A stretch of 64,000 nt of DNA from positions 124,001 through 188,000 of the forward strand of contig NZ_PGGM01000010.1 of assembly GCF_003010965.1 (NCBI RefSeq), in the 5' to 3' direction. The translations under genes were made by a program, and so were the position numbers. Shown here one piece after another: positions 12,383-55,596 of the stretch (within the stretch, counting starts at the first letter, position 1; every line of letters begins with the position of its first letter). Under the pieces are notes generated by a model that saw only the letters and a list, made by a program, of their open reading frames with translations, searched no databases and was not told the origin of the DNA. The stretch is from Phyllobacterium sophorae (GTDB lineage: Bacteria; Pseudomonadota; Alphaproteobacteria; Rhizobiales; Rhizobiaceae).

Positions 12383-12387
12383 CGGGT

Positions 12388-14164: not shown

Positions 14165-14349
14165 GATAGCGCGATGCCGACGGGGCGCCCGGTATGGCGG
14201 TGAACCGGACAGCGGGCCGTCTGACGGAGGGATCGCGCCCATGGGCTCGCGCGTCTATGGATGTTTCGGCGCATTCAGAAGCGGCTGGCGACGTCTGAAC
14301 GGGCGAACAGCGCGGCATCCGCGCTGTTCGTGTTGAATGCGTCCAGCAT
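14165..14349 (-). pseudogene. oppD relic with large internal deletion
   Basis: Minus-strand sequence from the ATG at 14349 reads MLDAFNTNSADAALFA, matching the first codons of the intact oppD-like gene (MLNTPNANSAGAALFA). After about 22 codons it jumps, out of frame, to sequence matching the 3' part of oppD (LLNAPKHP against LLNTPQHP, then the segment ending near GAPSAS). Roughly 800 bp of the middle is missing. The 3' end then fuses to a copy of the last codons of the deoR gene. This is the decayed end of the first unit of a tandem duplication. Confidence 0.8.
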
Positions 14350-33556: not shown

Positions 33557-33596
33557 TAAGGTTCGCTCCTGCTTTTCTACGATCGCCACTGATCCT

Positions 33597-35606: not shown

Positions 35607-35690
35607 TTGCTGTCCTTGTAACATCATGGTGAGGCGGATCGGCAGGGGAACTGCCACCCGTTGCAGGATGATAGTCCAGTTTCAAGGCTG

Positions 35691-38199: not shown

Positions 38200-38445
38200 C
38201 TATTTTGCGTTTTGGCGTAGGGCGTAGTTTGGCTCTCTGACCAGAAATTTCTGTCGTCCGATGATCTCGGGCTGGTAGACGAGCGCATCCCAGTTGTCCT
38301 TCTCCACCGGTTCGAGCGCCACCGAGACCACATTCGGCGCGCAGCCGAAGGCTTTGATGACGGCGGATGCGAGCTCGTCGGCCAAAATCTTTCGGCGACC
38401 CTCGTCGATGTGGGCGGGGAAATGCTTGACGCTGATATGAGGCAT
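38200..38445 (-). CDS. tautomerase, possible independent translation from an internal start
   Basis: The last 81 codons of the NRPS gene encode a tautomerase-like protein beginning MPHISVKHFPAHIDE. This family uses an N-terminal proline as catalytic base, which requires a free amine after removal of the initiator Met. Just before this ATG (38445) is a good Shine-Dalgarno, GGGAG, 6-8 bases away. So the segment may be made both as a fusion and as a free enzyme, or only the free form may be active. Alternatively the fused domain has lost activity and is structural. Confidence 0.5.
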   Translation of the reverse strand: MPHISVKHFPAHIDEGRRKILADELASAVIKAFGCAPNVVSVALEPVEKDNWDALVYQPEIIGRQKFLVREPNYALRQNAK

Positions 38446-41400: not shown

Positions 41401-42252
41401 AACGCGGATGAGATTGCGCGCGAGACGCGACGTCAGGGCCTCCCCGCCGCTAAATATCTGGGCGAGGCTTAAATCCTGAAATCCGTCCGTTTCCACAAGA
41501 GCCGTCCAAAGCGTCGGCACACACTGCAGCGTTGTGACCGCATGGCGTTTGGCGGTTTCGACGAGTCTGGAAGGATCGCGGTATGTGCCGATGCCGGCCA
41601 TGACGACGGTCGCGCCAAGAGCGGCGCTAAGGATTTCCCATTGGGCCGCATCGAAGCTGAAGGGGGTCTTTTGCAAAATCCTGACGTCTTCGTTGATGCC
41701 CATAGCGTCACGCAACCAATCGAGTTGGTGCGCAATGCTCCCATGCTCGATCGCCACGCCTTTGGGCTTGCCCGTGCTTCCCGATGTATAGATGATGTAG
41801 GCAAGGTTGTTCGAGCCGGCGTTGACGTCCTGTTCGGCATCGTCGCTTTCCCCTTCCAGACATTCCTCAATACGGAGAATGGCACCTTGGGCGGACTGGA
41901 TTGTCCGTGCATCGCTCTCCAGGAGTGCCGTCGTCAAGATGATCCTGGCGCCGGAATCCTCAAGAGCATATCGCAGCCGGCCGCTCGGATACTCTGGGGA
42001 CAAGGGCAGGTAGGCTCCACCCGAGCGAAGGACCGCCCAGATCGCAATTTCGAGTTCGAGAGAGGAATCGACAAAGACGCCGACGACGGCATCGGCTTTG
42101 ACGCCATGTTTGCGCAAATGGGCCGCGACCTGTCCGCTGCGACGCCAAAGCTCGGCAAAAGTCAACGAACCGGAATCCGAGGAGACGGCAACTCGATCCG
42201 GATGTCGCAGAACCTGCTCTTTCAGTTGCTGTATGAGTGTGGATTTTGTCAT
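38200..42252 (-). CDS. single-module NRPS, indigoidine-synthetase type (A-Ox-T-TE) with C-terminal tautomerase
   Basis: Protein of 1350 aa. Adenylation core about 1-455 (YTSGSTGKPKG, NLYGPTET, YRTGDL, GRVDNQVKISGHRIE). An McbC/SagB-like FMN oxidase is inserted about 505-850, between A8 and A10 (PSGKIDL about 892), as in BpsA/IndC. The thiolation domain has Ser near 953 in DVGGNSLS. The thioesterase has GYSFGA (Ser near 1083) and a late His in HDHYS. Residues 1270-1350 form a 4-oxalocrotonate-tautomerase-like domain. Hand alignment to GrsA gives specificity code DAWQFGLINK, which I recall as glutamine type. There is no condensation domain. The product should be indigoidine or a related aminopyridinedione. 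indA and indB partners are absent. Confidence 0.9.
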   Translation of the reverse strand: MTKSTLIQQLKEQVLRHPDRVAVSSDSGSLTFAELWRRSGQVAAHLRKHGVKADAVVGVFVDSSLELEIAIWAVLRSGGAYLPLSPEYPSGRLRYALEDSGARIILTTALLESDARTIQSAQGAILRIEECLEGESDDAEQDVNAGSNNLAYIIYTSGSTGKPKGVAIEHGSIAHQLDWLRDAMGINEDVRILQKTPFSFDAAQWEILSAALGATVVMAGIGTYRDPSRLVETAKRHAVTTLQCVPTLWTALVETDGFQDLSLAQIFSGGEALTSRLARNLIRVHPAASLINLYGPTETTINVSAYIVRADELDDTDRVLPIGFPVYHTDLIVCDGARELADGEVGELCIAGPQLARGYIGNPELTAAKFTMLVDAQGRERRVYRTGDLAIKGADGLVGFVGRVDNQVKISGHRIELDEIRLAIENHRWIRRATVVPWQTRRGTPQLAAFVELDETEAALMDQNISGSHHKSKASRRQVNAQLSNGAFRLADELDGNIVSLPSRAAPEDIATRAFARKTYRNFRTRVRGDQIVEAIRTAQRPPLPGSTHDATLDKTLIGRILRWFGPFSSDTRLLPKYAYASPGALNASQIFVEANGVMGLWPGLYYFHPADHTLTLVSPLTPSNAGIRLHIYGKRSRIREVYSTNVDEVLYLEAGHMLGLLEEVAVEHGLYPAKAAPPHSVPAGLFSAEDYVHTLSVKLVRRVVPEPLVKSLALVQIHEETPDGVTPGTYRLDNDKLAPIGDPIIRRKDVIAINQAVFDRSTFGIALIVAKQSGWEGFVELGRFLHRLQTSDPAIGLMSSGYSSLSGYEMATSSRLDALIGKDFFPGSGTISYFALGGGISPAQRSSRGMEEDLVHMRGPTEILKDDLRELLPEYMVPSRVKVIETTPTMPSGKIDLQSLRNLVEAEESARPIVPPATRIELEVAGIWKDILGLQHEELSIRDSFFDVGGNSLSAMALINRLNARFGTRLPIQALFAVPTVEALASAIGSGAVSHDSRLVSLNEAPEGSPIYCWPGLGGYPMSLRSLAQAAGEGSYRFLGVQAHGINPDEVPFTTIEDMAAADVELIQRDHPIGPITCMGYSFGARVAFETAYQLEQLGRTVDKIVLIAPGSPLQKATAAAAEADRFEDERFLRILLSVFAGTLNSPLEAQLLASVRDERAFIDFISGKFSDLSSELVARIVTVVKATFSFEYTFDELNQRTVRAPIALIKAQGDDYSFLEAAGSRVSQGFSQVIELPHDHYSILRGDGQTALAQVLSDVLSTDREISMPHISVKHFPAHIDEGRRKILADELASAVIKAFGCAPNVVSVALEPVEKDNWDALVYQPEIIGRQKFLVREPNYALRQNAK

Positions 42253-42290: not shown

Positions 42291-42314
42291 ATTGATATCA
42301 ATCTTGATAACAAT
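42291..42314. promoter_or_regulatory. tandem 12-bp operator before the NRPS operon
   Basis: Two adjacent 12-mers, ATTGATATCAAT (a perfect palindrome) and CTTGATAACAAT, lie 39-62 bp before the NRPS ATG at 42252. The same arrangement recurs at four other promoters in 46-56 kb, including that of the GntR gene. It is a probable operator of that regulator. Confidence 0.65.
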
Positions 42315-42480
42315 CGAATGCCCATTCTTGCGGCGAGATGGGAATAAATTGCTCTTTTCGCTCTGGCGAACGCACAGTTTTTGAGCGCACCGCCTAAAGC
42401 GTAATCACCGAACGTCGCCTTCGAAGGCCTCGAAAGACTGGACCTGCGGAGCGACAACTTCACGACAAGGCAGGGAGATT

Positions 42481-43218
42481 CTAGTCTCGCGAGAAGGGCA
42501 ACAGCAGCTTGCGGTAACTTTGCTCTTTTGCTTTGCCGCGCAATTCATCGCGCGTGGTGCGTCCGACGATCTTTCCGGCGGCCATCACCATGATCCGCTC
42601 GCACAACTGCGCGACAACCGCGAGATCATGACTTATGAGGAGGTAGGAAATCTGCCGCTCGGCGCGCAATTCGGCAAGCAGGTTGAGGATTTCTGCTTGC
42701 ACCGACACATCGAGCGATGATGTCGGCTCATCAAGCAGAATGATCCTTGGCTCGACCAGAAGAGCGCGCGCAATGCAAAGACGCTGCCGCTGCCCTCCCG
42801 AAATCTGACCGGGGAACCTGAACCGGATGGAATGCGGCAGACTGACTGCTTCGAGCACGTCGGCGATGCGCTTGTCCTGCCGATCGAAGCGATGGATAAT
42901 CAACGGTTCACGCAGGATTGTGTCCACGGTGTGCGCCGGGTTCAGCGCTGCCGCTGGATCCTGAAAAACGATCTGCAGGAGACGGCGATCGGCATAGGTT
43001 CGCCGGGCATTGAGTTTGCGATCGAAAACTTCGATGTTTCCCAGCCAGGTATCGTAGATGCCCGCAATGCATTTCAGCAATGTGCTCTTGCCGCAGCCGG
43101 ATTCGCCGACGATGCCGAGACTTTCCCCGTGGTCGAGCGTCAACGAGACATTGTCGACGACCAGCGACGCCCGCAAACGGATCGACAGCCCGTCAAGGGA
43201 AAGCGCATGCGGCGTCAT
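42481..43218 (-). CDS. Opp-type ABC importer ATPase (OppF/NikE-like)
   Basis: ATPase of 245 aa with Walker A GESGCGKS, signature ISGGQRQR and Walker B IILLDEPTSSLD. The ATG at 43218 forms an ATGA overlap with the upstream ATPase stop and is preferred to the longer frame from 43257. It lacks the usual C-terminal Opp extension of about 60 residues, so it resembles the shorter NikE-type subunits. It is the last gene of a four-gene cassette that has no binding protein of its own. Confidence 0.9.
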   Translation of the reverse strand: MTPHALSLDGLSIRLRASLVVDNVSLTLDHGESLGIVGESGCGKSTLLKCIAGIYDTWLGNIEVFDRKLNARRTYADRRLLQIVFQDPAAALNPAHTVDTILREPLIIHRFDRQDKRIADVLEAVSLPHSIRFRFPGQISGGQRQRLCIARALLVEPRIILLDEPTSSLDVSVQAEILNLLAELRAERQISYLLISHDLAVVAQLCERIMVMAAGKIVGRTTRDELRGKAKEQSYRKLLLPFSRD

Positions 43219-44060
43219 CGGGCCCACTCCGGATCGCGCGTAAGAACCGGCAAACACTGGCCGGGGCGATCAAGAGATGGCACGCACGCGATCAGGCCAC
43301 GCGTGTAGGGATGTCGCACGCTCCCGTACCCCTGCCCTGCGGCGAACGTTTCCACGGTCCGGCCTGCGTACATGACCATGATCCGGTCGGCGAAGTCGGA
43401 GACAAGTTCCAGGTCGTGGCTGATGAGGATAAGACCCATACCCCGCAACCGGACCTGCTCGTCGATCAGTTCGAGGATGTGCCTTTGAACGACGGCATCG
43501 AGGGCGGATGTGGCCTCATCGGCAATCAGGATGTCTGGCCCGCCGGCGAGCATCATCGCAACCATCACCCGTTGCGCCATCCCGCCCGAGAGTTCGTGGG
43601 GATAGAGATCAAACACCCGCCGCGGATCGCGGATGTGCACTTCGTCGAGAAGCATCTCTACCGCATTGCGCATGTCGTGCCGCCGGGTCCGTCGATGCAT
43701 GCGGAGCATCTCGCCGACCTGCCGCCCAGCGGTCTGCACCGGATTGAGGCCTTGCCTTGGGTCCTGAACCACCATCGCGATGCGATGGCCGCGAACTGCG
43801 CTGAGCTCTCGATCGGAAAGCGACAGCAGATCCGTCTCGCCGAAGCGGGCATGCCGCGCCGAAACGATTGCATTGTGTCCGGCAAGGCCGATCAGCGAGC
43901 GGACCGTCATCGATTTTCCCGATCCCGACTCGCCCACAATCGCCAGACGCTCGCGACCGAGCGTGAGGCTGACGCCCTTCACGGCCTCGACATAGCCGTC
44001 AGAGGTGCGAAAGCCGACCTTGAGATCACAAACGTCGAGCAGGGAATCGTGCAATTTCAT
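43215..44060 (-). CDS. Opp-type ABC importer ATPase (OppD/NikD-like)
   Basis: ATPase of 281 aa with Walker A GESGSGKS, signature LSGGMAQR and Walker B ILIADEATSALD (Ala replacing the usual Pro after Glu). The start at 44060 follows GAGAGGA; the longer open frame to 44447 overlaps the permease gene and is rejected. It pairs with the OppF-like protein downstream. Confidence 0.9.
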   Translation of the reverse strand: MKLHDSLLDVCDLKVGFRTSDGYVEAVKGVSLTLGRERLAIVGESGSGKSMTVRSLIGLAGHNAIVSARHARFGETDLLSLSDRELSAVRGHRIAMVVQDPRQGLNPVQTAGRQVGEMLRMHRRTRRHDMRNAVEMLLDEVHIRDPRRVFDLYPHELSGGMAQRVMVAMMLAGGPDILIADEATSALDAVVQRHILELIDEQVRLRGMGLILISHDLELVSDFADRIMVMYAGRTVETFAAGQGYGSVRHPYTRGLIACVPSLDRPGQCLPVLTRDPEWAR

Positions 44061-44065
44061 TCCTC

Positions 44066-44956
44066 TCAAGACCGCGGATCGACAAGATTGCGCAACGCAT
44101 CGCCGAGAAGATTGAAGCCAAGGGCAAAAACCAGGATGGCAATTCCGGGCATCGTCGAGACCCACCACGCCTCGAATACGACATCCCTGCCCTCGGCGAC
44201 CATTGCTCCCCATTCTGGTTGCGGAGGCGGCACGCTGGCCCCCAGAAACCCCAGTCCTGAGGTTATGAGAATGATGCTCGAAGCATCGAGTGTGGCACGG
44301 ACAATTGCCGAAGGCAGGCAAAGCGGCAGAACGTGTGTGAGCATGATGCGGATGCGCGAGGCGCCGAGGACCTGTGCGGCCTGCACGAATTCGGAGCGCC
44401 GCATTGCCACGGACTCGGCCCGGGCGATGCGGGCATAGGAAGGCCACCCTGTCACTGCGATCGCGACGATCGCCGCCCCGATGCCGGGGCCAAGCGTGAC
44501 CGCTACGGCAATCGCGAGAATAAGGCGCGGAAACGCCATGAACACATCACAAAGTCGCATAATCGGCGTGTCAAGCCGTGCGAACAGCCCCGAAGCGATG
44601 CCGATCAGGACGCCCACCGGCGTCACGATCGCCAGAACCGAGGCAACAATGGCGAGCGTCGGCCCCGCGCCTGATACGACGCGCGAAAAGATATCGCGCC
44701 CGAGCGTGTCGGTCCCGAACCAGTGGACAGCAGACGGCGGTTGCAAACGGTCGTTGAGGATCTGGAAACCGGGATCCTGGAGCGGCAGCACGGGTGCCAA
44801 CACCGCCACGCCCACCATCAACAAAACAACGAGCAGACCGATGACCGCGATCGGATCGCGCAGCACCGCCCTGATATCGCGTGCGATCCTTCCCAGTTGC
44901 GCCTGGAGCGGGGTATTGGGACTATTGTCGAAAAGCCATTCCTTGACTGCGCCCAT
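44066..44956 (-). CDS. Opp-type ABC importer permease (OppC/NikC-like)
   Basis: Inner-membrane permease of 296 aa with the N-terminal anchor, the HWFGTDTLGRDIFSRVV segment diagnostic of DppC/NikC proteins, and the EAA-type loop near AAQVLGASRIRIMLTHVLP. It lies 3 bp after the OppB-like stop and 5 bp before the ATPase start. Complete and of normal length. Confidence 0.9.
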   Translation of the reverse strand: MGAVKEWLFDNSPNTPLQAQLGRIARDIRAVLRDPIAVIGLLVVLLMVGVAVLAPVLPLQDPGFQILNDRLQPPSAVHWFGTDTLGRDIFSRVVSGAGPTLAIVASVLAIVTPVGVLIGIASGLFARLDTPIMRLCDVFMAFPRLILAIAVAVTLGPGIGAAIVAIAVTGWPSYARIARAESVAMRRSEFVQAAQVLGASRIRIMLTHVLPLCLPSAIVRATLDASSIILITSGLGFLGASVPPPQPEWGAMVAEGRDVVFEAWWVSTMPGIAILVFALGFNLLGDALRNLVDPRS

Positions 44957-44959
44957 TCG

Positions 44960-46081
44960 TCAGGCCCGCGTACGCGGATCGACGCGCGTTTGCGCGATTT
45001 CCGCCACCATGTTCAGCACCATGAACATGGTGCCGATGATCAACGTTGCCGCCAGCACAGCACGCATATCGGACGCCATCAGGGACTGGGTGATGTAGAG
45101 TCCGAGCCCGGGCCAGGCGAACACTGTCTCCGTCAACACCGCTCCTTCGAGGAGATAGGCATAGCTCCAGGCGATAACGGCAAAGAGAGGGCCCGCCGCG
45201 TTGGGCAAGGCATGGCGCCACAATACCTTCGTTTCAGACAGTCCCTTCAGCCGTGCAACGTTGATATAGTCCTGGCGATACTGCCACAGCAGGAACCCGC
45301 GAGTGGTGCGAGCTATATCGCTCAAGGCAACCAATCCCAACAGCGAGGCAGGAAGGGCTATATGCGACACCGCATTGCCGAACGCCGCCGGGTTGCCACT
45401 GATTGCTGTATCTACCAGAACAAGGCCGGTCACTCTGGGGACCGTATACTGATAGACGATGTCAAGCCTTCCTGGACCCCCTACCCAGCCGAGATGCGCA
45501 TAAAACAGCAGCAGCCCCACCAATCCCATCCAGAAAATCGGTAGGGAATTTCCGAGGATCATGACCAGCCGCACGAGATTGTCCGGCCACCGCCCGGAGA
45601 ATCGCACCGCAAGCAATCCAATTGGCACACCCAGCCCTACGCCGAGCGTGATTGCCACGCTCGCCAACTCGATCGTGGCGGGTAGAAAGCGGCCTATGTC
45701 CTCTACGACGGGATTTCCGGTTGTCGTGGCAACACCGAAATCTCCGCGCGCCATGTCCAGGCCGAACAGGACAAACTGCTCGGCTATCGGTTTGTCCAGA
45801 TGCATCTCACGACGCACTTTTTCGTATAGTTCCTGCGGCGCATGATCCCCGATCACCGTCAGAACAGGGTCGGTCGGCAGCAATCGGCCAATGGCGAAGA
45901 CGACAAAAAGGAGGCCGAGCAGAACCACGCCCGGAACCACTGCGGCCGATGCCAGCCTCCCGGCAAATGCGGCGCAATATCGTAACGGTCCGGTTAAAGC
46001 GCGCAAAGCGAATGGCGAACTGCCGTAGTCTCGAAAGACAGCACGGCGCGGCGCAGAAACTGCCGGGATCTCTTCCGCCAT
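44960..46081 (-). CDS. Opp-type ABC importer permease (OppB/NikB-like)
   Basis: Inner-membrane permease of 373 aa, first gene of the cassette. The start at 46081 follows AGGGAGCAACTTG; a frame to 46132 has no ribosome site. The N-terminus is longer than usual by about 45 residues before the first membrane helix (VVPGVVLLGLLFVVFAIGRLLPTDPVL). The channel loop ARLKGLSETKVLWRHALPNA is typical. No substrate-binding protein is next to it. The family 5 binding protein at 53781-55445, behind the same operator, is the obvious candidate partner. Confidence 0.9.
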   Translation of the reverse strand: MAEEIPAVSAPRRAVFRDYGSSPFALRALTGPLRYCAAFAGRLASAAVVPGVVLLGLLFVVFAIGRLLPTDPVLTVIGDHAPQELYEKVRREMHLDKPIAEQFVLFGLDMARGDFGVATTTGNPVVEDIGRFLPATIELASVAITLGVGLGVPIGLLAVRFSGRWPDNLVRLVMILGNSLPIFWMGLVGLLLFYAHLGWVGGPGRLDIVYQYTVPRVTGLVLVDTAISGNPAAFGNAVSHIALPASLLGLVALSDIARTTRGFLLWQYRQDYINVARLKGLSETKVLWRHALPNAAGPLFAVIAWSYAYLLEGAVLTETVFAWPGLGLYITQSLMASDMRAVLAATLIIGTMFMVLNMVAEIAQTRVDPRTRA

Positions 46082-46164
46082 CAAGTTGCTCCCTGCGATC
46101 TCTGACCAGACGGCAACCAGCGAGGTTGCCAAAGCTTAAGCAACAATTCCACACCAGGAGCTAC

Positions 46165-46188
46165 ATTGCTAACAATATTGATTTCACT
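46165..46188. promoter_or_regulatory. tandem 12-bp operator before the Opp-type permease cassette
   Basis: ATTGCTAACAAT at 46165-46176 is followed directly by the weaker copy ATTGATTTCACT at 46177-46188. It lies about 84-107 bp before the permease ATG at 46081. The first box differs by one or two bases from those before the NRPS and the other transporter genes. Confidence 0.6.
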
Positions 46189-46333
46189 ATTTGCAGATTT
46201 TTGAGATATATTTCCCGCGACAGCCCAGGAATCGAAACTTTTGCAGCATGCGGCGAGGTCCACAGACTTGCACACCGATCATCGTCATCCAACGCCTTCG
46301 CAGCAGGCAAGCGCTCCAGGAAAGCAGAAAACT

Positions 46334-47014
46334 TCAGGCGTTCACGCGAGCCAGGTTCTGCTCCAAGGCCTTTGCAACATTGTTGAGGTGCTCGAGCATT
46401 GCCTTTCCGGCACGCACACCATTTGCGGCGCAGATCGCATCGACAATTTCCTCCAGCTCCTGGATGGATTGTTTGATACGGCCCGGGAACAAAACCGTTT
46501 GAAACCGGAAGCGTGCGATCTGAGCATTCAGCGTTGCGACGATGCGGCTTGCGGTCGAAAGAGCGGCGATGCGCCGAATCTCGGTGTGAAGTTTGTTTAT
46601 CTCATGCAAGTATTCAACATAGGCTTCCTCGGCACGGGCCTGCTTGATTGCCGTCAAAATCTTCTTGAGGCGCTCGCCATCATCTGCGGTCGCCTTGGCG
46701 GCAGCGTTGCGTGCAATGAGCGTCTCAAGTGACGCAACCGTCTGAAGGATTTCAACCGCCTCCTGCTGGCTGATCACACGTACGCGCGCACCCTTGTTGC
46801 GCTCGACTTCGACAAGGCCTTCCTGATCCAGCTTCCCTAGCGCCAGCTTCACATTGACCCGATTGACGCCCAACCACTCTGCCAATTCTATCTCAGGAAG
46901 CCGCTGACCCGGGAGAAAATGCCCTGTCTCGATCGCCTTGCGCAGCTTTGCCACCGGATCGTTCTGTCGTTTGGAAACCCTCACCACCTTTAATCTCTTT
47001 CCTTTCAATCGCAT
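46334..47014 (-). CDS. GntR-family transcriptional regulator (FCD type)
   Basis: Regulator of 226 aa. A winged-helix GntR domain occupies about residues 20-75 (PEIELAEWLGVNRVNVKLALGKLDQEGLVEVERNKGARV), followed by an all-helical FCD ligand-binding domain. The start at 47014 is the first Met consistent with the fold; a GTG at 46987 with GGAAAGAG upstream is a good alternative, and the frame to 47179 is too long. It lies between two transporter operons. An operator-like tandem box precedes it, so autoregulation and control of the five-promoter set are likely. Confidence 0.85.
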   Translation of the reverse strand: MRLKGKRLKVVRVSKRQNDPVAKLRKAIETGHFLPGQRLPEIELAEWLGVNRVNVKLALGKLDQEGLVEVERNKGARVRVISQQEAVEILQTVASLETLIARNAAAKATADDGERLKKILTAIKQARAEEAYVEYLHEINKLHTEIRRIAALSTASRIVATLNAQIARFRFQTVLFPGRIKQSIQELEEIVDAICAANGVRAGKAMLEHLNNVAKALEQNLARVNA

Positions 47015-47095
47015 GAATAACGGTCGACACCCCGCCGACCTGTCACTGTTTGTGACAAAACGGTGAATGCGCCACCGTTCTCCCCGAACCGAATA

Positions 47096-47120
47096 TTTGG
47101 CATACAATATTGCCATCAAT
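47096..47120. promoter_or_regulatory. tandem operator-like boxes before the GntR gene
   Basis: TTTGGCATACAAT (13 bp) at 47096-47108 is followed by ATTGCCATCAAT at 47109-47120, about 82-106 bp before the GntR ATG. The pattern TTG-N4/5-CAA twice in tandem matches the other four sites but is the most divergent in its centre and has one extra base in the first box. Confidence 0.5.
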
Positions 47121-47376
47121 CGCGCGAGCAAGAGGATAATTTTGCGCAAGGCGCTATTTGCGAAAAAATAATGCAGCACGTTGCACGGGAGTGCGGAACC
47201 TCCACCCCAACTGCCCGGTCATAAAGGGCGTGCACGCCGGGAGAAGGCCCGGCGCTATGACTTCAAATTCGGTGATCGCCCCTCTTAAGGAAGAGGACAA
47301 CCTTCGACTGACAGGAGAGCAATATGGGGCACCCACCGGCGTTCCGATCCTGTGTGAAAAGGCAGCAATCTGCTCG

Positions 47377-48165
47377 TCAGGCTTCCAGGATGGCCCTGAG
47401 GAAAGCTTTCGTACGATTGTTCGCAGGGGATTCGAATATCTGCGCCGGACTGCCCTGTTCGATGATGCGGCCGCCTTCGAGGAAGCATACTCGATCCGAA
47501 ATTTCCCTGGCCAGCCCCATATGGTGTGTGACCATTAACGTCGTGAACTGATGCTCTCGGGCCAACGCACGTATAACCGACAGGACCTCGCCGACCGTTT
47601 CAGGGTCCAGCGCCGATGTGACCTCGTCAAACAGCAAGATCTTGGGACGCATTGCGAGCGCGCGGGCAATCGCCACACGCTGCTGCTGACCGCCAGACAA
47701 CTGGATGGGAAAGCTGTTCTGCTTGTCGGCAAGCCCAACAAGATTCAATAGTTCGATCGCGCGGTCGTAAGCTTCATCCTTGGAGAGCCGCAGCACACGA
47801 ATGGGCGCTTCCGCGATGTTTCGCAGTGCGCTCATGTGCGGAAACAGATTGAAACTCTGGAAAACCATGCCGACTTTACGACGAATCGCGCGAGTTTGCG
47901 CCGCCGCAGCCTGCTCGCTGAGTTTATCGGGGCCATGATCGACCCAGAGGGCCTCGCCATCGACGGTGACTGCGCCAGCCTGCACGTTCTCCAGCGTCAT
48001 GAGGATGCGCAGAATCGTTGATTTTCCTGAGCCGCTCGGACCGATAAGCGTCAGATTTTCATTTGGCGCAACCTCGAGATTCAGCCGTTCGAGAACCGTG
48101 ACGTCCCCGAATTTCTTCGTGACCTCGCGGAAGGTGATGATCGGAGAATGAGGTTGATCAACCAT
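47377..48165 (-). CDS. polar amino-acid ABC importer ATPase (EhuA/GlnQ-like)
   Basis: ATPase of 262 aa with Walker A GPSGSGKS, signature LSGGQQQR, Walker B ILLFDEVTSALDPE and the TTLMVTHHM switch, typical of family 3 amino-acid importers. The start at 48165 has GGAGGA upstream and overlaps the permease stop by 8 bp; the longer frame to 48393 is an artefact. Its 3' end is the end of this operon, with about 360 bp to the GntR start; that gap shows no gene. Confidence 0.9.
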   Translation of the reverse strand: MVDQPHSPIITFREVTKKFGDVTVLERLNLEVAPNENLTLIGPSGSGKSTILRILMTLENVQAGAVTVDGEALWVDHGPDKLSEQAAAAQTRAIRRKVGMVFQSFNLFPHMSALRNIAEAPIRVLRLSKDEAYDRAIELLNLVGLADKQNSFPIQLSGGQQQRVAIARALAMRPKILLFDEVTSALDPETVGEVLSVIRALAREHQFTTLMVTHHMGLAREISDRVCFLEGGRIIEQGSPAQIFESPANNRTKAFLRAILEA

Positions 48166-48871
48166 GTATGGTCCTCCGGCCAAGCCACGCCTGCGAGGCA
48201 GCATTTTCGAGAACTCGGATAACGAATGAGGTAGCCAGACTGATAGCCAGGAAGATGAGGCCGCAGAGGGTGATTGGCTCGATATACTGGAAATGGTCCG
48301 CCCCATGCTGCATGGCGACGAACATGATGTCCGTAACGGCGATTGATGCAAGCAATGGCGTTTCCTTGAAGATTGACACCAACAGGTTGCCAAGCGCCGG
48401 GATCAAGAAAGGAATGAGTTGCGGCACAATGATGTAGCGATAGGTATCGACGCGTGAAAAACCAAGAGCGGCGACAGCATCACGCTGCCCGTGCGGCAAG
48501 GCTTCAAGACCCGAACGATACGCTTCCGACACATAGCAACCATAGTGGATCGACAAGGCGAGGATACCGGTCGCAATCGCCGGCAACATCACGCCGACCT
48601 GGGGCAGAACGAAAAAATAGAAATATATCTGCAAGAGCAGCGGCGTGGAGCGGATGAAATCGGACAGAAGAATTGCCGGCTGCGCGATCAGCCTGATACT
48701 CGAGCGGCGGGCCGACAACACGGGTATCCCAATCACCAGTGCGCCCGCAAATGCGAAAAGTGCAACGTAAATCGTCACTCCCGCAGCGGCAATCAGCTTC
48801 GGCAGTATGACGACCGCAACGTTCAGCCGGAACCAGTCCGGTCCGATAATGTCAGGGCCGAATATACTCAT
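48158..48871 (-). CDS. polar amino-acid ABC importer permease (EhuD-like)
   Basis: Inner-membrane permease of 237 aa with five or so helices, the TPLLLQIYFYFFVLPQ segment and the EAA loop AVAALGFSRVDTYRYIIVPQ characteristic of the HisM/GlnP family. Met 48871 gives the usual family N-terminus. An upstream in-frame ATG at 48913 is possible; neither has a strong Shine-Dalgarno. About 300 bp without a supported gene (48872-49172) separates it from the second permease, unusual inside such an operon. Confidence 0.87.
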   Translation of the reverse strand: MSIFGPDIIGPDWFRLNVAVVILPKLIAAAGVTIYVALFAFAGALVIGIPVLSARRSSIRLIAQPAILLSDFIRSTPLLLQIYFYFFVLPQVGVMLPAIATGILALSIHYGCYVSEAYRSGLEALPHGQRDAVAALGFSRVDTYRYIIVPQLIPFLIPALGNLLVSIFKETPLLASIAVTDIMFVAMQHGADHFQYIEPITLCGLIFLAISLATSFVIRVLENAASQAWLGRRTIHG

Positions 48872-49172
48872 TTGAAGAAAGCCCGGTGCGTGGAAATGAA
48901 TTCCTGCCACCATGGAATGTGACGGACTTGTCCGCCGCCGCGCATCCGACCAGGATCGTCAGGTGCGACAATCGGTTTTCGTAACCGGGCGCATATTTCT
49001 CGTCGCATTTTCCGGGCTGCAACGACGATCACAGCCCGCATTTCGGAAGATGGTCTCCGCGGTTGCGACCCGGCCTCAATACCGTATTCAAGACGCACGT
49101 TTGCCGATCCGGCTCGGCGGTGGCTTCTCCCGGCGATACCTTCGTAACCTGCCCACTCCGTTCCAGCAGTCC

Positions 49173-49844
49173 TCATCTTACGGGACTCGCAACGGTACGC
49201 CGTTTCCACCTGCCGAAACGGATCTCCATCAATCCCATGACACGAATGATCAACTGGGCGCCCGCGAAATAGATGCACAAAACAACCACCAGCACAGGGA
49301 CGGGCTGGTAGGTGCTGACAATAATCGAGTGGGCCTGCTCGGTGAGCTCCGCGAGGCCGATCAGGGAGACAATGGAAGTACCCTTGAGAAGCATGACGAA
49401 CTCGTTGCCCATCAATGGCAGCAAGGCCACCAGCGCCTGAGGGAGCACGACATACCGGATGCGCTGAAAGGTATTCATTCCCAGCGCCACAGCCGCTTCA
49501 TGTTGGCTTCCAGGAATGGAAAGGACCGCCGACCTTATATACTCTGAAGAATAGGCAGCGTGCGTTAACGCGCACCCTATGACGGAGGCCTCCCAAACTG
49601 TCAGTCGCATGCCTATAAATGGAAAAGCAAAATAGAGCCAAAACAACGTGACATAGAGGGAAATACCCCGAAAAAACTCGACATAGACTGAAGCCAGATA
49701 ACGGGCCGAACGAAATCGGGATAAGCGCGCGAGGCCGATGACGATCGCCAAACTCGAGCCCAATATCAACACGGTCGCAAACAGCAACACTGTTTGCACA
49801 AGTCCCCCAAGCAACAGCGGGACCCACTCAAGCAGATCTTGCAT
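49173..49844 (-). CDS. polar amino-acid ABC importer permease (EhuC-like)
   Basis: Inner-membrane permease of 223 aa with the family signature FFRGISLYVTLFWLYF near residues 57-72 and the EAA loop AVALGMNTFQRIRYVVLPQAL. It follows the binding-protein gene by 80 bp. It should pair with the EhuD-like permease. Confidence 0.9.
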   Translation of the reverse strand: MQDLLEWVPLLLGGLVQTVLLFATVLILGSSLAIVIGLARLSRFRSARYLASVYVEFFRGISLYVTLFWLYFAFPFIGMRLTVWEASVIGCALTHAAYSSEYIRSAVLSIPGSQHEAAVALGMNTFQRIRYVVLPQALVALLPLMGNEFVMLLKGTSIVSLIGLAELTEQAHSIIVSTYQPVPVLVVVLCIYFAGAQLIIRVMGLMEIRFGRWKRRTVASPVR

Positions 49845-49924
49845 GTGCCGGTCCCTCCGTAATTTGCAGATCGACAGAAATCATGATCGCTTGGCCCATA
49901 TCGACAAGGGGAGCTACAGGCCCA

Positions 49925-50788
49925 TCACTGCTTGCAAATGTCGGCGATCTTCACCTCTGGTGAGGGAATATCCGTGGCAGAAACCGCATATTTTGCAAGA
50001 ATGGCTTCGTATTCCGGTGTCCCTTTGAGGCTGCGTAGGGCATCGTTGAATTTGGTAACGAGCTCCTGGTCGTCCTTGCGGAAACCAAAACCAAGATAAT
50101 TTATGGATGGCTTTCCATCGAACACCGGAAGCGTGAACGGCAAAGCACGCTCAATTGTCTTGCCGCCATCGGCTGCAACAGCCTCGTTGGCTGCAAAGAT
50201 GGTCGACGTCGTCAAGTCGACACGCCCAGACTTCAATGCGAAAGAGACTTCTGGAAAATCCTGAAAAACGACAAGCTGGCTCTCTGGAATACCCAGCCGC
50301 TCGAAATCCTTGCGGGAAGCCGAGCCCTGCTGCGTACCGATCTTGATATCCGGGTTTTTGAGAACATCGTCGTAACTATGGATGTTCTTGGGATTTCCCT
50401 TCCGGACGGTAATAGCATCGGCAATCTGGATGTGCGGTTCGGCAAAAGCAATTTCCGCGCATCGTGAGGGACGGATGAAAAGACCTGCCGCGATTACATC
50501 GAAATACCCTGCCTTGAGGCCGGGTATCAACGCACTGAATTGAACAGCCACCCCTTCGACCTTTGGCACACCGAGCTTGGCGAAAGCAGCACGCGCCAGC
50601 TCGTAATCCACTCCGGCGAGACTGCCATCGGGTTGCTTGAAGCTATATGGTTTCTCATTGGCAAAGCCAATCTGCACGATGCCGTCACGCTTTATGCGCT
50701 CCAACGTCGTTTCAGCCGCCGCAGAAGAAACAGCAAGGCCCGACAAAAAAGCAGCAGTGACCGATGCCCACAGAATTCGTTTAAACAT
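49925..50788 (-). CDS. family 3 amino-acid substrate-binding protein (EhuB-like)
   Basis: Periplasmic binding protein of 287 aa with a signal peptide ending about AAAETT. The pattern IGFANEKPYSFKQPDG, GVDYELARAAF and PGLKAGYFDVIAAGLFIRPSRCAEIAFAEPH closely resembles the ectoine/hydroxyectoine binding protein EhuB. No ectoine-degradation genes are seen here, so another compact amino-acid or cyclic amidine ligand is possible. It is the first gene of the importer operon and lies behind a tandem operator. Confidence 0.85.
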   Translation of the reverse strand: MFKRILWASVTAAFLSGLAVSSAAAETTLERIKRDGIVQIGFANEKPYSFKQPDGSLAGVDYELARAAFAKLGVPKVEGVAVQFSALIPGLKAGYFDVIAAGLFIRPSRCAEIAFAEPHIQIADAITVRKGNPKNIHSYDDVLKNPDIKIGTQQGSASRKDFERLGIPESQLVVFQDFPEVSFALKSGRVDLTTSTIFAANEAVAADGGKTIERALPFTLPVFDGKPSINYLGFGFRKDDQELVTKFNDALRSLKGTPEYEAILAKYAVSATDIPSPEVKIADICKQ

Positions 50789-50848
50789 GCCTTATCCAAC
50801 CCCAAATTAATGTTAATTTTGCAGCCTCAATATAGGGAGGAAAGCATT

Positions 50849-50872
50849 ATTGTTAACAATGTTGTTTTCAAT
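50849..50872. promoter_or_regulatory. tandem 12-bp operator before the Ehu-like importer operon
   Basis: ATTGTTAACAAT (perfect palindrome) at 50849-50860 is followed directly by GTTGTTTTCAAT at 50861-50872, 61-84 bp before the binding-protein ATG at 50788. It has the same tandem layout as the sites at 42291, 46165, 47096 and 55573. It also lies behind the monooxygenase gene, whose stop is at 50993. Confidence 0.65.
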
Positions 50873-50992
50873 TATTCGCCTCCACGGCGAATGTTTTGCC
50901 AGTGATGATCCTACGGCTAGAAGACATTCCTGTTTCATTGGATCCGTCTGCCAGCAGGATTCTGGCTCCGCTGGGCAACGATCGAACTTCCG

Positions 50993-52339
50993 TCAGCGAG
51001 CGAGACGCGACGCGTTCTCGGCGTGAGAACGTCCTTGCCCGAACAGTGTTTCGCGAAAGGTGGACCGGCGCTCTGCAATACGGCCCCGGTTACGCAACTC
51101 GGGCATGACCTGATCGACGAATTCGAAAATCGTAGTGGGTGTGACGATGGAGTTTAGATTGAACCCGTCCAGACCGGTTTCATCTACGATCGATTCCAGC
51201 CGATCCGCGATATCGACTGGTGTGCCGACAAGTATACCGGCGCCAAAACGTCCCACATCATCGATCACTTCCTGCACCCGGAAAGACCGGTCGGACTGTG
51301 TCGTGTATTGGGCCGCGCGCGACTGGTTCGCTTCCGTCGCGGTGTAGGTCAGGACAGAATCCGGATCGAGGGCGGCCAGGTCGTAGCCGGACGATCCGCA
51401 GTATTGCGCGAGCGCCGATTCAGCGGAACGATAACGTGCATATTCCTCGAACTGCTCGCGAGCTTCGGCGCGCGTTGGGGCAACGATTGCCGTCTGTTGA
51501 TGGAACATCAGAATGTCGCCGGGATCGCGGCCGAAGTCGACCGCACGCTTGCGTATGCTTGCAATGTTCTCCTTGACTGCGGCCAATGTCCGCCCCTGCA
51601 CAAACACGCACTCCGCGTGCCGGGCGGCAAAATCGCGTCCGGCTTTCGAACTTCCGGCCTGAAAGATCACAGGCGTACGCTGCGGTGATGGCTCACACAC
51701 ATGCGGACCGGCAACTTTAAAGACGTCGCCCTGATGGCTGATGTCGTGAACCCGCGCGGGGTCGATATGGATGTTGTTTGCCACGTCGAACTTGACCGCG
51801 CCATCCTCCCAGCTCGCCTCCCACAGTTTGTAGCAAACCGACAGAAACTCATCGGCGATGGCGTATCTGCGGTCGTGCGCGATCGGCTCACTCAGCCCGA
51901 AATAGCGGGCGGTACTGGCAATATAAGACGTAACGACGTTGAGGCCGATGCGGCCGTTTGTCAGGTGGTCGAGGGTGGAGAGGCGCCGGGCCACATGGAA
52001 GGGATGTTCGTATGTTGTCGAAATCGTGGTCGCAAAACCGAGGCTTGTCGTGGCCTGAGCCATGCTTGGAATGAGCAGTGATGGATCATTGGAGGGAAAT
52101 TGCATGGCATAGCGGATTGCGGTCTCCGGCGAGCCTTTGTAAACGTCAGACGCACCAAAAAAATCGCCGAGAAAAAGTGCGGTGAACCCTCCCTCTTCGA
52201 TCTTGCGCGCGATTGTCACCCAGAAATTGATGTCATTATACTCATGGTGCCGGCTGTCTGGGTGTCTCCACAGACCGTGAGAATCGCCTGTGCGATTGTT
52301 CATCTCAAACAGATTGAAGAAAATTGGTTTCTTGAGCAT
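50993..52339 (-). CDS. NtaA/SnaA/DszA-family FMN-dependent monooxygenase, copy 1
   Basis: Luciferase-like two-component monooxygenase of 448 aa that uses FMNH2 from a separate reductase. Typical segments are FTALFLGDFFGASDVYKG near residues 52-69, ATTISTTYEHPFHVARRLSTLDHLTNGRIGLNVVTS, and PVIFQAGSSKAGRDFAA. Relatives oxidise nitrilotriacetate, EDTA, dibenzothiophene sulfone, pristinamycin IIA or S-substituted cysteines. It lies 43 bp downstream of a second, related monooxygenase. No flavin reductase gene is visible in the window. Substrate unknown. Confidence 0.9.
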   Translation of the reverse strand: MLKKPIFFNLFEMNNRTGDSHGLWRHPDSRHHEYNDINFWVTIARKIEEGGFTALFLGDFFGASDVYKGSPETAIRYAMQFPSNDPSLLIPSMAQATTSLGFATTISTTYEHPFHVARRLSTLDHLTNGRIGLNVVTSYIASTARYFGLSEPIAHDRRYAIADEFLSVCYKLWEASWEDGAVKFDVANNIHIDPARVHDISHQGDVFKVAGPHVCEPSPQRTPVIFQAGSSKAGRDFAARHAECVFVQGRTLAAVKENIASIRKRAVDFGRDPGDILMFHQQTAIVAPTRAEAREQFEEYARYRSAESALAQYCGSSGYDLAALDPDSVLTYTATEANQSRAAQYTTQSDRSFRVQEVIDDVGRFGAGILVGTPVDIADRLESIVDETGLDGFNLNSIVTPTTIFEFVDQVMPELRNRGRIAERRSTFRETLFGQGRSHAENASRLAR

Positions 52340-52382
52340 CTGGTCTTCAGCTATCTCTACATTCGAGTTCCGGGTCTCTTGT

Positions 52383-53711
52383 TCAATCGCGGCGGTAACG
52401 GCTGTGGGGACGCGGTATTTGGAGATTGTCGCGCAGCGTCACCCCCTCATACGCGTCGTGATAAAGACCCCTGCGCTGGAGTTCCGGAACGACCAGATCG
52501 ACAAAATCGTCAAGATCGCCCGGCAGATAAGAAAACCGCACATTGAAGCCATCGGCAGCTCCGCTGTTGAACCAATGTTCGAAATGGTCCGCGATATCTG
52601 TTGGCGTCCCGACGACCGTGTTGTAACCGGAAGCAAGCCAGCGGTAGAGATCGCGGATGCTCTTTCCGGTCTCTCTTGCATGAGCCACCAGCAGTTCCTG
52701 CCGTGTCTTGTCACCCTCCGTCGGCGGCACTTCTGGCAAAGGACCGTCGATCGAGTATTTCGACAGGTCCGCTCCCGCCGCGCCAGAAAGCATTGCGACA
52801 CCGGCTACAGGATGAATAAGATCCTGCAACTGTGCGTACTTGTCCTCCGCTTCGCTCCGCGTCGCGGCAACGACCGGCGTAACCCCCGGTAGGATCGCGA
52901 TATGGTCGGGGTCGCGACCGGCGGCCGACGTTCGTGCCCGGACATCGTCATAAAATGCAATCGCGCCCGCCAGGTCCGATTGTGCGGTAAAGATAACGTC
53001 GGCGAAACTGGCTGCTGCGGTTCGTCCCGCATCGGAGGACCCGGCTTGCACGATCACCGGATGTCCCTGGGGCGGGCGGGCGACGCCGAGCGGACCCCGG
53101 ATATTGAACTGCGGGCTTTGATGGTTGAGGACATGCATTTTTTCGGGAATAAAAAACTTGCCGCTTGCCTTGTCGAACAGAAAGGCGTCGTCATCCCAGC
53201 TATCCCACAGGCCCTTGACGATATCGACGAATTCCCTCGCCCGGACATAACGAAGCGAATGCAATGGATGTTCGCGTTTGCCGTAATTGAAAGCCTCTGC
53301 AGAATTGGAAGAAGTCACTACATTCCATCCCGCTCGGCCCTTGCTTAGGTAATCGAGCGACGCCAACTGACGCGCAACGGTGTATGGTTCATAGTAGGTG
53401 GTGGTTACCGTGCCGACCAGGCCGATGCGGTTCGTCGCAACGGCCAAGGCCGAAAGCAGGGTTATCGGCTCGAAATCGACGACCCTTGCACTGTAGCTGA
53501 GCGTCTCATCATTGAGATTGACCGGAAAAGGAAGCGTATCGGCGATGAAGATCGCGTGAAACAGTCCTCGTTCAGCCGTCCTGGCAAAGGCAATCTGCGC
53601 GTCGATATCAAGACTGGCTTCGGCGTTCGCCCGTGGATATCGCCAGCCCGCCGTGTGCTGGCCCGGGGTCTGCAGAAATGCACCGAGTATGAGCTTGTTT
53701 CGCCGTGCCAT
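52383..53711 (-). CDS. NtaA/SnaA/DszA-family FMN-dependent monooxygenase, copy 2
   Basis: Luciferase-like monooxygenase of 442 aa starting MARRNKLILGAFLQTPGQHTAGW; the longer frame from a GTG at 53762 is rejected. The family pattern is clear: TTTYYEPYTVARQLASLDYLSKGRAGWNVVTS, PVIVQAGSSDAGRTAAA, and the C-terminal GAADGFNVRFSYLPGDLDDFVDLVVPELQRRGL. It is more typical of the NtaA/SnaA core than copy 1. It follows the binding-protein gene by 69 bp, so a transported compound is the probable substrate. The gene relic at 18.94 kb is a fragment of a close family member. Confidence 0.9.
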   Translation of the reverse strand: MARRNKLILGAFLQTPGQHTAGWRYPRANAEASLDIDAQIAFARTAERGLFHAIFIADTLPFPVNLNDETLSYSARVVDFEPITLLSALAVATNRIGLVGTVTTTYYEPYTVARQLASLDYLSKGRAGWNVVTSSNSAEAFNYGKREHPLHSLRYVRAREFVDIVKGLWDSWDDDAFLFDKASGKFFIPEKMHVLNHQSPQFNIRGPLGVARPPQGHPVIVQAGSSDAGRTAAASFADVIFTAQSDLAGAIAFYDDVRARTSAAGRDPDHIAILPGVTPVVAATRSEAEDKYAQLQDLIHPVAGVAMLSGAAGADLSKYSIDGPLPEVPPTEGDKTRQELLVAHARETGKSIRDLYRWLASGYNTVVGTPTDIADHFEHWFNSGAADGFNVRFSYLPGDLDDFVDLVVPELQRRGLYHDAYEGVTLRDNLQIPRPHSRYRRD

Positions 53712-53780
53712 GCTGTTCTCGCGGATTGCGGAAATGTCGAAGGAAAGCGATGCCGGGACCACCCCGGCATGCCTGTGCGA

Positions 53781-55445
53781 TCAGTTCTTGCTGGTGCGCC
53801 AGTAGGCTGGCGTATCCCAGCTCGGCCCGGGGACGAAACCTTTCACATTTGCCCGCACCGGCACTTGTCCAAGCTGCTGATAGATGATGATGAACGGCGA
53901 ATTGTCGCGCACCTCTTTCTGAAGATCGAGGTAAGTGGCGGAACGCTTTGCGGAATTGGCCTCGGTCAGGCCCGATAGCGTTTTTTTGGTCAGCTCCGGG
54001 ACAAGCCAGTGATCGCGCCAGGCTGCGTTCTTGTTTTTGGAGTTTTCGCTGTCGTCATCGTTGATCGTAAAGAATGACGCGCTGGCGTGGACGTCAAGGT
54101 AATCAGGCGACCATCCAAAGAACACGGCATCGTGCTGACGTCCACGAAACCTCGTCTGCAGCTGCGCGCGGTCGAGCGTGTTCAGCTCAACGGTGACACC
54201 TGCTTCACCGAAGGTGGACTGCAATGACTGGCTGACTTCTCTGTCCGGCGAACGACTGGATACGTCGAGCCTGAGCTTGAAGCCGTCCTTATAGCCTGCT
54301 GCCTTGAGCAGCGCCTTTGCTTTCGCGATGTCAAGCGTGTAGGGCGTTTCGTCCAGGGAGCCGCCCGAGCCGCTGCCCCAAAAACTCTGATGAACAGTTG
54401 CCTGCCCCTTCAGGATGTTCTTTGTTATACCGTCATAGTCGATCGCCCACCGCAAGGCTTGCTGTACTTTGGCATCGCCGAGCGGCTTTACCGCCTGATT
54501 GAGCGCGATATAGTTCACGTCAGTCTTGGGTGTCGAAATGATCGTTATATCCGCGTTCGTCGACAGCGCCTGTATTTGGTCGGCAGTCAGATTGCGTGCG
54601 ATATCCACATCGCCCTTCTCGAGCAAAAGACGCTGGGTCGCCGCTTCCGGAATATGGCGCAGAACGACATTCTTCAGCGGCACGCTTTCGCGCTTGTAGT
54701 GCGGGTTAGCCGCAAGGACAACGGCCTCATTCGGGGTCCACCCAGCAAGCTGATACGGCCCGGAACCTGCTGTATTTTTCTTTAGCCAGCCGTAACCCAG
54801 ATCACCATCGCTCTGATGCTTCAGGACTTCCTGCTTGTCTACGACTGACGAAACCGTAGATGAAAGAACCTTCAGAAACAGGTCCGGGGCGTAAGGCTTG
54901 TCGAGCTTGAGGACGAGCGTTTTCTCATTAAGCTGGCTAACGTGGTCATCGATGTTGTCCTTCGACCATCCGAACTGCGTCAGGTAAAAAACCGGAGTCT
55001 TGTCGAGACGCAAGACACGTTGCAGCGAAAAGGCGGCATCTTCAGCGGTCAGGCTGCGTCCGGAGGAAAAATATAAACCGTCGCGTATCTTGAACGTGAA
55101 TGTAAGACCGTCATCGGAAATCGTCCATGACTCAACTGCTCCGCCTATTGGCTTTGTAAAGTCCGATGGATCGAACGTTATCAAACGCTCATAAACGTTG
55201 TTGACCACCTCCCCCCCGGTTGCTTCATAGACTTCCGCAGGATCCAGCGTGATCAGATCACTGATATATTTTGCCACGACGAGAGTACCGGAAGGGGTCT
55301 GGGCAACTGCCTGGGGCGCGCTCAAAGCGAAAGGCGCACCAACTATGAACAGAAATCCAAATGCTGTGGATCTCAGGAAGTAACCCCCGCGGGCCGTTCG
55401 TGACGATATGGCGCGAAATGGACGTGCTCGAAAAAATGGATGCAT
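53781..55445 (-). CDS. Opp-type substrate-binding protein (family 5)
   Basis: Periplasmic binding protein of 554 aa. The start at 55445 follows AGGAGA. A long signal peptide (hydrophobic stretch STAFGFLFIVGAPFALSAPQAVAQ) precedes the mature start near TPSGTLVVAKY. The fold pattern is that of DppA/OppA/NikA. No permease or ATPase genes adjoin it. The Opp-type cassette at 42481-46081 lacks a binding protein and sits behind the same type of operator, so the two probably form one importer. It leads the two-monooxygenase operon. Confidence 0.9.
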   Translation of the reverse strand: MHPFFRARPFRAISSRTARGGYFLRSTAFGFLFIVGAPFALSAPQAVAQTPSGTLVVAKYISDLITLDPAEVYEATGGEVVNNVYERLITFDPSDFTKPIGGAVESWTISDDGLTFTFKIRDGLYFSSGRSLTAEDAAFSLQRVLRLDKTPVFYLTQFGWSKDNIDDHVSQLNEKTLVLKLDKPYAPDLFLKVLSSTVSSVVDKQEVLKHQSDGDLGYGWLKKNTAGSGPYQLAGWTPNEAVVLAANPHYKRESVPLKNVVLRHIPEAATQRLLLEKGDVDIARNLTADQIQALSTNADITIISTPKTDVNYIALNQAVKPLGDAKVQQALRWAIDYDGITKNILKGQATVHQSFWGSGSGGSLDETPYTLDIAKAKALLKAAGYKDGFKLRLDVSSRSPDREVSQSLQSTFGEAGVTVELNTLDRAQLQTRFRGRQHDAVFFGWSPDYLDVHASASFFTINDDDSENSKNKNAAWRDHWLVPELTKKTLSGLTEANSAKRSATYLDLQKEVRDNSPFIIIYQQLGQVPVRANVKGFVPGPSWDTPAYWRTSKN

Positions 55446-55572
55446 TTTGGTCTCCTGAGTTGCACTCGACGTAGCCTCGGGAGTCAAAACAAGCATCATT
55501 TGTCCCGCCTATCCCCCGTTCCGCGCTTCAGTGTGAAGCATGGCAGGCGAAGCGTAGATTTTTGAGAGCAAG

Positions 55573-55596
55573 ATTGATAACATTTTTGATCTCATT
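55573..55596. promoter_or_regulatory. tandem 12-bp operator before the binding protein/monooxygenase operon
   Basis: ATTGATAACATT at 55573-55584 is followed directly by TTTGATCTCATT at 55585-55596, about 128-151 bp before the ATG at 55445. Both boxes keep TTG at positions 2-4 and CA at positions 9-10. The rest of 55446-55868 shows no supported gene. Confidence 0.55.

Follow-up and report, generated by a model that had tools for sequence, protein, structure and literature searches.

The stretch analysed here (below, the window) is a 64,000-nucleotide segment of the Phyllobacterium sophorae genome. On its minus strand, from 32690 to 55499, it carries a cassette of 19 genes in five units: a family-5 solute-binding protein with two monooxygenases; an Ehu-like importer; gntR, which encodes a regulator of the GntR family; the core of an Opp-type importer (two permeases and two ATPases; the unit itself lacks a binding protein); and a unit of a nonribosomal peptide synthetase (NRPS), an EamA exporter, CysK, a cupin, NicO, a phosphopantetheinyl transferase and CysE. 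Upstream of each unit lies an array of short palindromic boxes, and this report concerns the relation between these arrays and the regulator. Coordinates are collected in Table 1.

The order of all 19 genes is shared by Phyllobacterium KW56, Rhizobium rhizogenes K84, Rhizobium sp. K1/93 and R. tumorigenes 932. The genes are 79-99% identical in KW56 and 46-92% identical, most near 80%, in the other three, where the cassette is carried by pAtK84c (K84), pTiK1_93 (K1/93) and pTi932 (R. tumorigenes).

Results

The repeating unit of the arrays is the palindrome TTG-N4-CAA, present at a 12-bp pitch in two to three copies per promoter. An earlier note, made from the sequence of the window, had listed five pairs of boxes (42291, 46165, 47096, 50849 and 55573), each upstream of a separate minus-strand unit; all of them are found at these coordinates and all are intergenic. 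The 12-bp repeat of what that note called a tandem pair is real; the operator, however, is an array of two to three palindromes and not always a pair. The pair at 55573 represents two of the three boxes of array E, and the site at 47096, brought to the common register without the extra base given in the note, reads TGGCATACAA. The third box of array R scores 4/6 in the window and 5/6 in K84, and in K84 and R. tumorigenes operator N is extended by a third box (5/6). In 40 boxes (the best-scoring pair of each of the five promoters in four genomes, a set selected by score) T2, G3, C8 and A10 never vary, and the four bases between the half-sites are AT-rich. The distance from the array to the start codon varies between promoters; array N sits 40-61 bp ahead of the start codon.

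Pairs scoring at least 11/12 occur six times in the window at the 12-bp pitch, in the five promoters and once inside the gntR coding sequence (46695); the last was taken as coding and rejected as an operator. No such pair occurs at pitches 9, 10, 11, 13 or 14, and two occur at pitch 15. The best pair of each promoter was compared with those in 2000 dinucleotide shuffles of the same promoter, which gave p from 0 to 0.0045 in the window, from 0 to 0.008 in K84 and from 0 to 0.001 in R. tumorigenes; the promoters of the latter two played no part in defining the box pattern. The outcome that the earlier note had named as counting against its idea, boxes no commoner before these genes than in shuffled DNA, is not what is seen (p <=0.0045 in the window). 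The weakest pair is that of K84 promoter C (10/12). A control with the reversed pattern is weak, as the frequencies of TTG/CAA and GTT/AAC may differ, and the weight is placed on the shuffles and on conservation.

The arrays are kept before the same five units in the window, KW56, pAtK84c of K84 and pTi932 of R. tumorigenes. In four-way alignments of these promoters (the intergenic spaces being delimited by annotated genes where needed) 93 of the 110 columns of the 22-bp cores are invariant, against 306 of 804 elsewhere. The agrobacterial flanks had time to diverge, considering the gene identities given above. No 22-column window is better conserved than the core in promoters R and N, and one each is in C and D.

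Strong sites are nearly confined to the cassette. The consensus of the earlier note, with 0 mismatches, is found at four places in the 6.35-Mb genome, all of them that note's own sites; as it was derived from those sites, this count shows absence elsewhere and is not an independent test. The fifth site of the note has no exact match to it. The tighter consensus TTGNTANCAATNTTGNTANCAA, with <=2 mismatches, is found at five places in the window's genome (G000), four of them in the cassette, and at four places in the same-genus genome G008, all four in the cassette. The fifth place in G000, C3:179810, was rejected as an extra member of the regulon: it lies inside a small open reading frame, and at the same threshold nothing in G008 corresponds to it. 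A second candidate place is C1:202236, for which the open reading frames were listed. The looser TTGNNNNCAANNTTGNNNNCAA with 1 mismatch is non-specific: counted on one strand, it matches 51 times in G000 and 57 times in G008.

The region 1.3 kb upstream of gntR was tested at 12 loci of GntR relatives and at seven control loci of other GntR genes, a pair being accepted at p <=0.04 in 300 shuffles; K1/93, K15/93, B21/90 and the second R. tumorigenes record were left out of the relatives as near-copies. A pair at the 12-bp pitch is present in 9/12 relatives and in 0/7 controls (control p from 0.23 to 0.96). It scores 11/12 at KW56, K84, R. tumorigenes, Shinella HZN7, G493, G556 and Thermus oshimai, and 10/12 at Nonomuraea (p 0.003) and G668. 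The regulators of G493, G556, G681 (three paralogs) and G668 are 57%, 39%, 39/42/42% and 36% identical to that of the window, respectively. Nine of the relative loci are non-cassette stretches, in which, as fetched, tblastn at E 1e-10 finds no relative of the NRPS, the monooxygenases, CysK or CysE; the pair is nevertheless present at six of these nine, and it is therefore the regulator, and not the biosynthetic genes, with which the array is linked. We conclude from this co-occurrence that the boxes very probably belong to the GntR of the cassette, as the earlier note had proposed in naming it the likely binder.

At the Shinella, G493 and Thermus loci the pair is located about 1.0-1.1 kb upstream, before the gene preceding gntR. 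On Thermus oshimai pTHEOS01 (6931-6952) it ends 21 bp before the catechol 2,3-dioxygenase gene of a catechol 2,3-dioxygenase-gntR operon; the operator layout therefore reaches outside Proteobacteria. Some of the non-cassette stretches (Shinella, G493, Thermus) hold transporter relatives at 29-44% identity, and those near gntR of G493 and Shinella HZN7 include Ehu-type and Opp-type ones (31-44%), hinting that the importers could be older targets of the regulator.

The regulator has an N-terminal winged helix-turn-helix domain (PF00392, 50.8 bits at a cut-off of 27) and a C-terminal FCD domain (PF07729, 65.6 bits at a cut-off of 24.3), with which the fold match agrees. Its start codon is uncertain, and the true start may be a TTG about 21 bp further in. 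It reaches no NCBIfam cut-off: the best match, PhnR of Burkholderia (TIGR03338), stays below (101.5 vs 271.5), and the score of 20.5 bits with the MocR-type EhuR (NF052286, cut-off 480) means that it is not EhuR. Its structure model (predicted local distance difference test, pLDDT, 88) is nearest to FCD regulators, DNA-bound Atu1419 being among the first matches; residues 1-16, where an N-terminal extension like the one that mediates cooperativity in NanR would be sought, have pLDDT <50 (start codon uncertain). The protein is rare at the level of E 1e-30 or better, where 2 of the 149 relatives and 1 of the 394 family genomes have it, its own genome counted. At 80-90% identity, six plasmid records are among the matches listed, of 926 matching.

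In Atu1419 the metal ligands are Asn137, His141, His192 and His214 (PMC7797058). We aligned the corresponding positions in 22 proteins, eight of the close clade (the window's included) and 14 more distant relatives; the genomic context of the close clade is known for the window and, by organism name, for R. tumorigenes and R. rhizogenes. In all eight close-clade proteins Asn is replaced by Ile or Val and the equivalent of His192 by Leu or Phe, and one of them is also without His141. In the distant relatives the three His are kept in 14/14 and Asn in 13/14, and none of the 14 has lost both ligands. The recognition helix is nearly unchanged between the two groups. The part that reads DNA has thus been kept, and the pocket has been altered; the loss of two of the four ligands suggests a changed effector.

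Table 1. Coordinates of the operator arrays and cassette genes in the window
Feature	Position	Strand	Remarks
Operator array E, three TTG-N4-CAA boxes at 12-bp pitch	55562..55595	-	upstream of the solute-binding protein-monooxygenase-monooxygenase unit
Family-5 (Opp/Nik type) solute-binding protein	53781..55499	-	
NtaA/DmoA-family flavin monooxygenase 1	52383..53762	-	TIGR03860, 540 bits, cut-off 280
NtaA/DmoA-family flavin monooxygenase 2	50993..52339	-	TIGR03860, 482 bits, cut-off 280
Operator D, two boxes	50850..50871	-	upstream of the Ehu-like importer unit
EhuB-like binding protein	49925..50788	-	TIGR02995, 237 bits, cut-off 191
EhuC-like permease	49173..49844	-	profile scan and synteny
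EhuD-like permease	48158..48913	-	open reading frame and synteny
EhuA-like ATPase	47377..48165	-	TIGR03005, 368 bits, cut-off 345; open reading frame to 48393, start set by K84 length
Operator array R, two good boxes and a weaker third	47098..47131	-	upstream of gntR
GntR-family regulator, FCD (FadR) subfamily, proposed binder	46334..47014	-	domains, structure model, relatives
Operator C, two boxes	46166..46187	-	upstream of the Opp-type permease/ATPase unit
OppB-type permease	44960..46132	-	
OppC-type permease	44066..44956	-	
OppD-type ATPase	43215..44054	-	start set by K84 length
OppF-type ATPase	42481..43257	-	
Operator N, two perfect boxes	42292..42313	-	upstream of the NRPS unit
NRPS, indigoidine/minimycin-synthetase type	38200..42252	-	layout adenylation (A)-(oxidase, Ox)-thiolation (T)-thioesterase (TE)-tautomerase
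EamA-family exporter	37271..38188	-	
CysK-like enzyme	36240..37274	-	additional genome copy
Cupin protein	35691..36182	-	
NicO/NiCoT nickel-cobalt transporter	34569..35657	-	
4'-Phosphopantetheinyl transferase	33597..34442	-	
CysE-like serine acetyltransferase	32690..33589	-	second copy, C-terminal Ile kept

The earlier note had called the NRPS indigoidine-type. It does resemble the minimycin/indigoidine synthetases, yet "simply indigoidine-type" is too narrow in view of a C-terminal tautomerase region. The A, T and TE domains are found by profile scan. The tautomerase region scores just under the cut-off (PF01361, 20.8 bits at 22) and aligns over separate tautomerase genes in Rhizobium CB3171 and A. 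vitis. The oxidase has no Pfam match and reaches 24.2 bits with the SagB model (cut-off 78.4); among the matches listed, the alignments with relatives cover no less than 92% of the length. At the positions which we take to be those of the A-domain code, the residues read DAWQFGLIN, as they do in the relatives from Rhizobium CB3171, A. vitis and B. elkanii; those from S. clavuligerus and S. lavendulae differ at one position apiece. The known enzyme MinA (A-Ox-T-TE-tautomerase) turns glutamine into a heterocycle, which couples to indigoidine or, tautomerised, is joined to ribose by MinB (PMC8724604). No C-glycosynthase of the MinB type is found among the cassette genes as annotated or scanned.

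Minimycin-like clusters are also observed on plasmids from bacteria that differ greatly, A. vitis (pAvCG78a, 5381-14187) and S. lavendulae (pSA3239, 1-9804), with genes for pseudouridine-phosphate glycosidase, uracil phosphoribosyltransferase, EamA, tautomerase, alkene reductase and NRPS. These loci have pseudouridine-phosphate glycosidase genes, as in the minimycin pathway, and the cassette is without one.

CysE docks CysK with its C-terminal isoleucine. The copies in the genome next closest to the cassette pair are 43% (CysK) and 49% (CysE) identical to it. In Leucaena a pair of serine acetyltransferase and O-acetylserine lyase makes mimosine from 3-hydroxy-4-pyridone (PMC9243426), although according to a study in the reference list of that paper one such lyase is not a mimosine synthase. 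From the NRPS type and the extra CysE/CysK pair it follows that the product may be a mimosine-like amino acid and, by analogy, a heterocyclic alanine.

Discussion

We believe that the cassette is, in all likelihood, one local regulon of its FCD-type GntR, which would repress five promoters until it is released by an effector. The proposal of the earlier note, a GntR regulon joining the NRPS, the importers and the monooxygenases, is supported in that the boxes are kept before all five units in four genomes and are almost confined to the cassette.

FCD proteins usually bind DNA as dimers. In the mechanism that we propose, GntR dimers would lie side by side on two to three palindromes, the 12-bp pitch being about one helical turn, and repression would be cooperative and act on all five promoters at once, including that of gntR. 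In promoter D the right box, TTGTTA, is followed after 17-18 bp by CTATAT, TTATAT, CATATG or TTTATG in the four genomes (CTATAT at 18 bp in the window), and in promoter C TGGAAT or TGAAAT is found 18 bp past the right box. The boxes in D and C thus overlap a possible -35 element, and a bound protein would therefore cover it. A small effector, presumably the product or an intermediate, would release GntR. The NRPS would supply a glutamine-derived intermediate of the aminopyridine type, to which the extra CysE/CysK pair would add an alanine side chain; EamA would be the exporter of the product; and the two NtaA-family monooxygenases, together with the Opp-type and Ehu-like importers, would recover and process the product or a complex of it.

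The arrays could instead be bound by a regulator encoded elsewhere, with the GntR of the cassette binding something else. A LysR-type gene does start at 56854, near the cassette, and the gntR promoter holds the poorest array. We consider this decidedly unlikely, since the arrays recur near GntR relatives whose stretches, as fetched, hold no relatives of the biosynthetic or monooxygenase genes (Shinella HZN7, G493, G556, Thermus oshimai, Nonomuraea and, marginally, G668) and are absent at 7/7 other GntR genes; the transporter relatives (29-44%) around gntR of Shinella, G493 and Thermus limit this argument, as these neighbourhoods are not wholly unrelated. It is also tempting to see in the boxes AT-rich promoter elements (-35/-10) kept for RNA polymerase, because TTGTTA resembles a -35 hexamer and in promoter D each of the four genomes has a -10-like hexamer 17-18 bp further downstream. 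Promoters, however, do not show palindromes repeated in up to three copies at a strict 12-bp pitch, and the neighbouring pitches (9, 10, 11, 13 and 14) are without pairs in the window, which makes this explanation hardly credible.

If GntR does bind the arrays, it might activate, or repress some units and activate others: some members of the FadR subfamily both repress and activate, and the array-to-start distances differ between promoters. The overlap with the possible -35 in D and C and the position of array N before the start codon are those of a repressor, and we find activation unlikely. The chance that the regulon serves the uptake of ectoine and hydroxyectoine, the NRPS part being a passenger, is very slim. 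EhuA and EhuB are above the NCBIfam cut-offs for ectoine equivalogs, and the Ehu-type and Opp-type relatives near gntR of G493 and Shinella fit the importers as an older part of the regulon; on the other hand, the array is common to all five units, no ectoine-degradation gene is annotated within the cassette (copies in K84, K1/93 and R. tumorigenes), and its regulator is not the MocR-type EhuR.

Several observations weigh against a single GntR regulon with these operators. The array of the gntR promoter is the weakest and is not recovered genome-wide even at 3 mismatches, and in promoter E the chosen 22-bp core is surpassed in conservation by 16 of 125 windows. Promoter-like matches in the region number 5, against a shuffle mean of 6.6, and scans with consensus promoters and terminators give no clear excess. 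Sites of the FadR subfamily typically have GT/AC dinucleotides, which the boxes keep only in part. Among the relatives, the G668 pair is marginal (p 0.04) and no pair is present within 1.3 kb upstream of the three gntR paralogs of G681 (39-42% identity). The identity ranges of relatives (36-96%) and controls (32-36%) touch at 36%, and the controls were hand-picked from 30 listed records of 926.

Sites of the FadR subfamily are TKGT/ACMA palindromes with a GT-AC gap of 3 or 2 nt (Suvorova et al. 2015, PMC4494728). TTG-N4-CAA fits them loosely: in the 40 boxes TTG and CAA are strongly kept, and the inner T and A are not fixed. The cassette resembles the local FadR/FCD regulons of that survey in the winged helix-turn-helix and FCD domains, the AT-rich palindromes and the regulator gene inside its own regulon. 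The survey reports weaker extra half-boxes 7-12 nt from the site centre in 13 groups of the subfamily, whereas the cassette repeats whole palindromes at a fixed 12-bp pitch, up to three, in five promoters; its available part makes no mention of a regulon of this composition. Three dimers of E. coli NanR, also an FCD GntR, bind side by side on a (GGTATA)3 operator (PMC8012715), which is a precedent for side-by-side repeats up to three. The repeats of NanR are direct, however, and the cassette has TTG-N4-CAA palindromes at a 12-bp pitch and no repeat of the GGTATA type. Atu1419 (VanR group, Agrobacterium fabrum; PMC7797058) shares the FCD fold and a short palindrome overlapping or near promoter elements, but the palindromes of its site are widely separated and Zn is bound in its pocket, while the GntR of the cassette is without two of the four ligands.

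As regards the enzymes, the NRPS is like MinA (PMC8724604) in the A, T and TE domains and in the A-domain signature of indigoidine/minimycin-type relatives, glutamine being the substrate of MinA; unlike the minimycin pathway as described there, the cassette has CysE and CysK and no MinB-type C-glycosynthase. A periplasmic binding protein, an ABC importer and a flavin monooxygenase also serve the uptake and oxidation of EDTA (ethylenediaminetetraacetate) in Chelativorans BNC1, where the monooxygenase, EmoA, depends on FMNH2 (reduced flavin mononucleotide) and one operon is involved; in contrast to the cassette, the available description of that system includes neither an NRPS nor CysE/CysK (PMC7312458). 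No description of the present regulon was found in the titles and abstract openings listed from the open-licence literature, and the main text of PMC10410297, on these Ti plasmids, is without the words ectoine, GntR, NRPS, nonribosomal and cysteine synthase.

A bolder extension, tentative and on the whole rather improbable, is that a mobile cassette captured an old GntR/operator pairing, and that loss of the metal site allowed the pocket to sense a new signal, a mimosine-like pyridinyl-alanine produced by the NRPS and CysE/CysK, so that one regulator would switch on synthesis, export, re-import and oxidation. If true, a new chelator-type amino acid would be carried on agrobacterial plasmids.

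The in silico evidence supports well the view that a regulator from a known family governs a new local regulon here, and that its unusual operator layout extends to a wider group of GntR proteins. The arrays offer an operator code that can be tested for this FCD-GntR group, itself undescribed, and the lost metal ligands lead to a concrete prediction of the way in which FCD proteins switch effectors. From the gene set one would expect a product of an unusual class, a heterocycle made by an NRPS and joined to O-acetylserine. The shared arrays argue that the NRPS unit, the two importers and the two monooxygenases are one functional unit, and this cassette is carried by a biocontrol strain, on pAtK84c, and by Rubus isolates, on their Ti plasmids.

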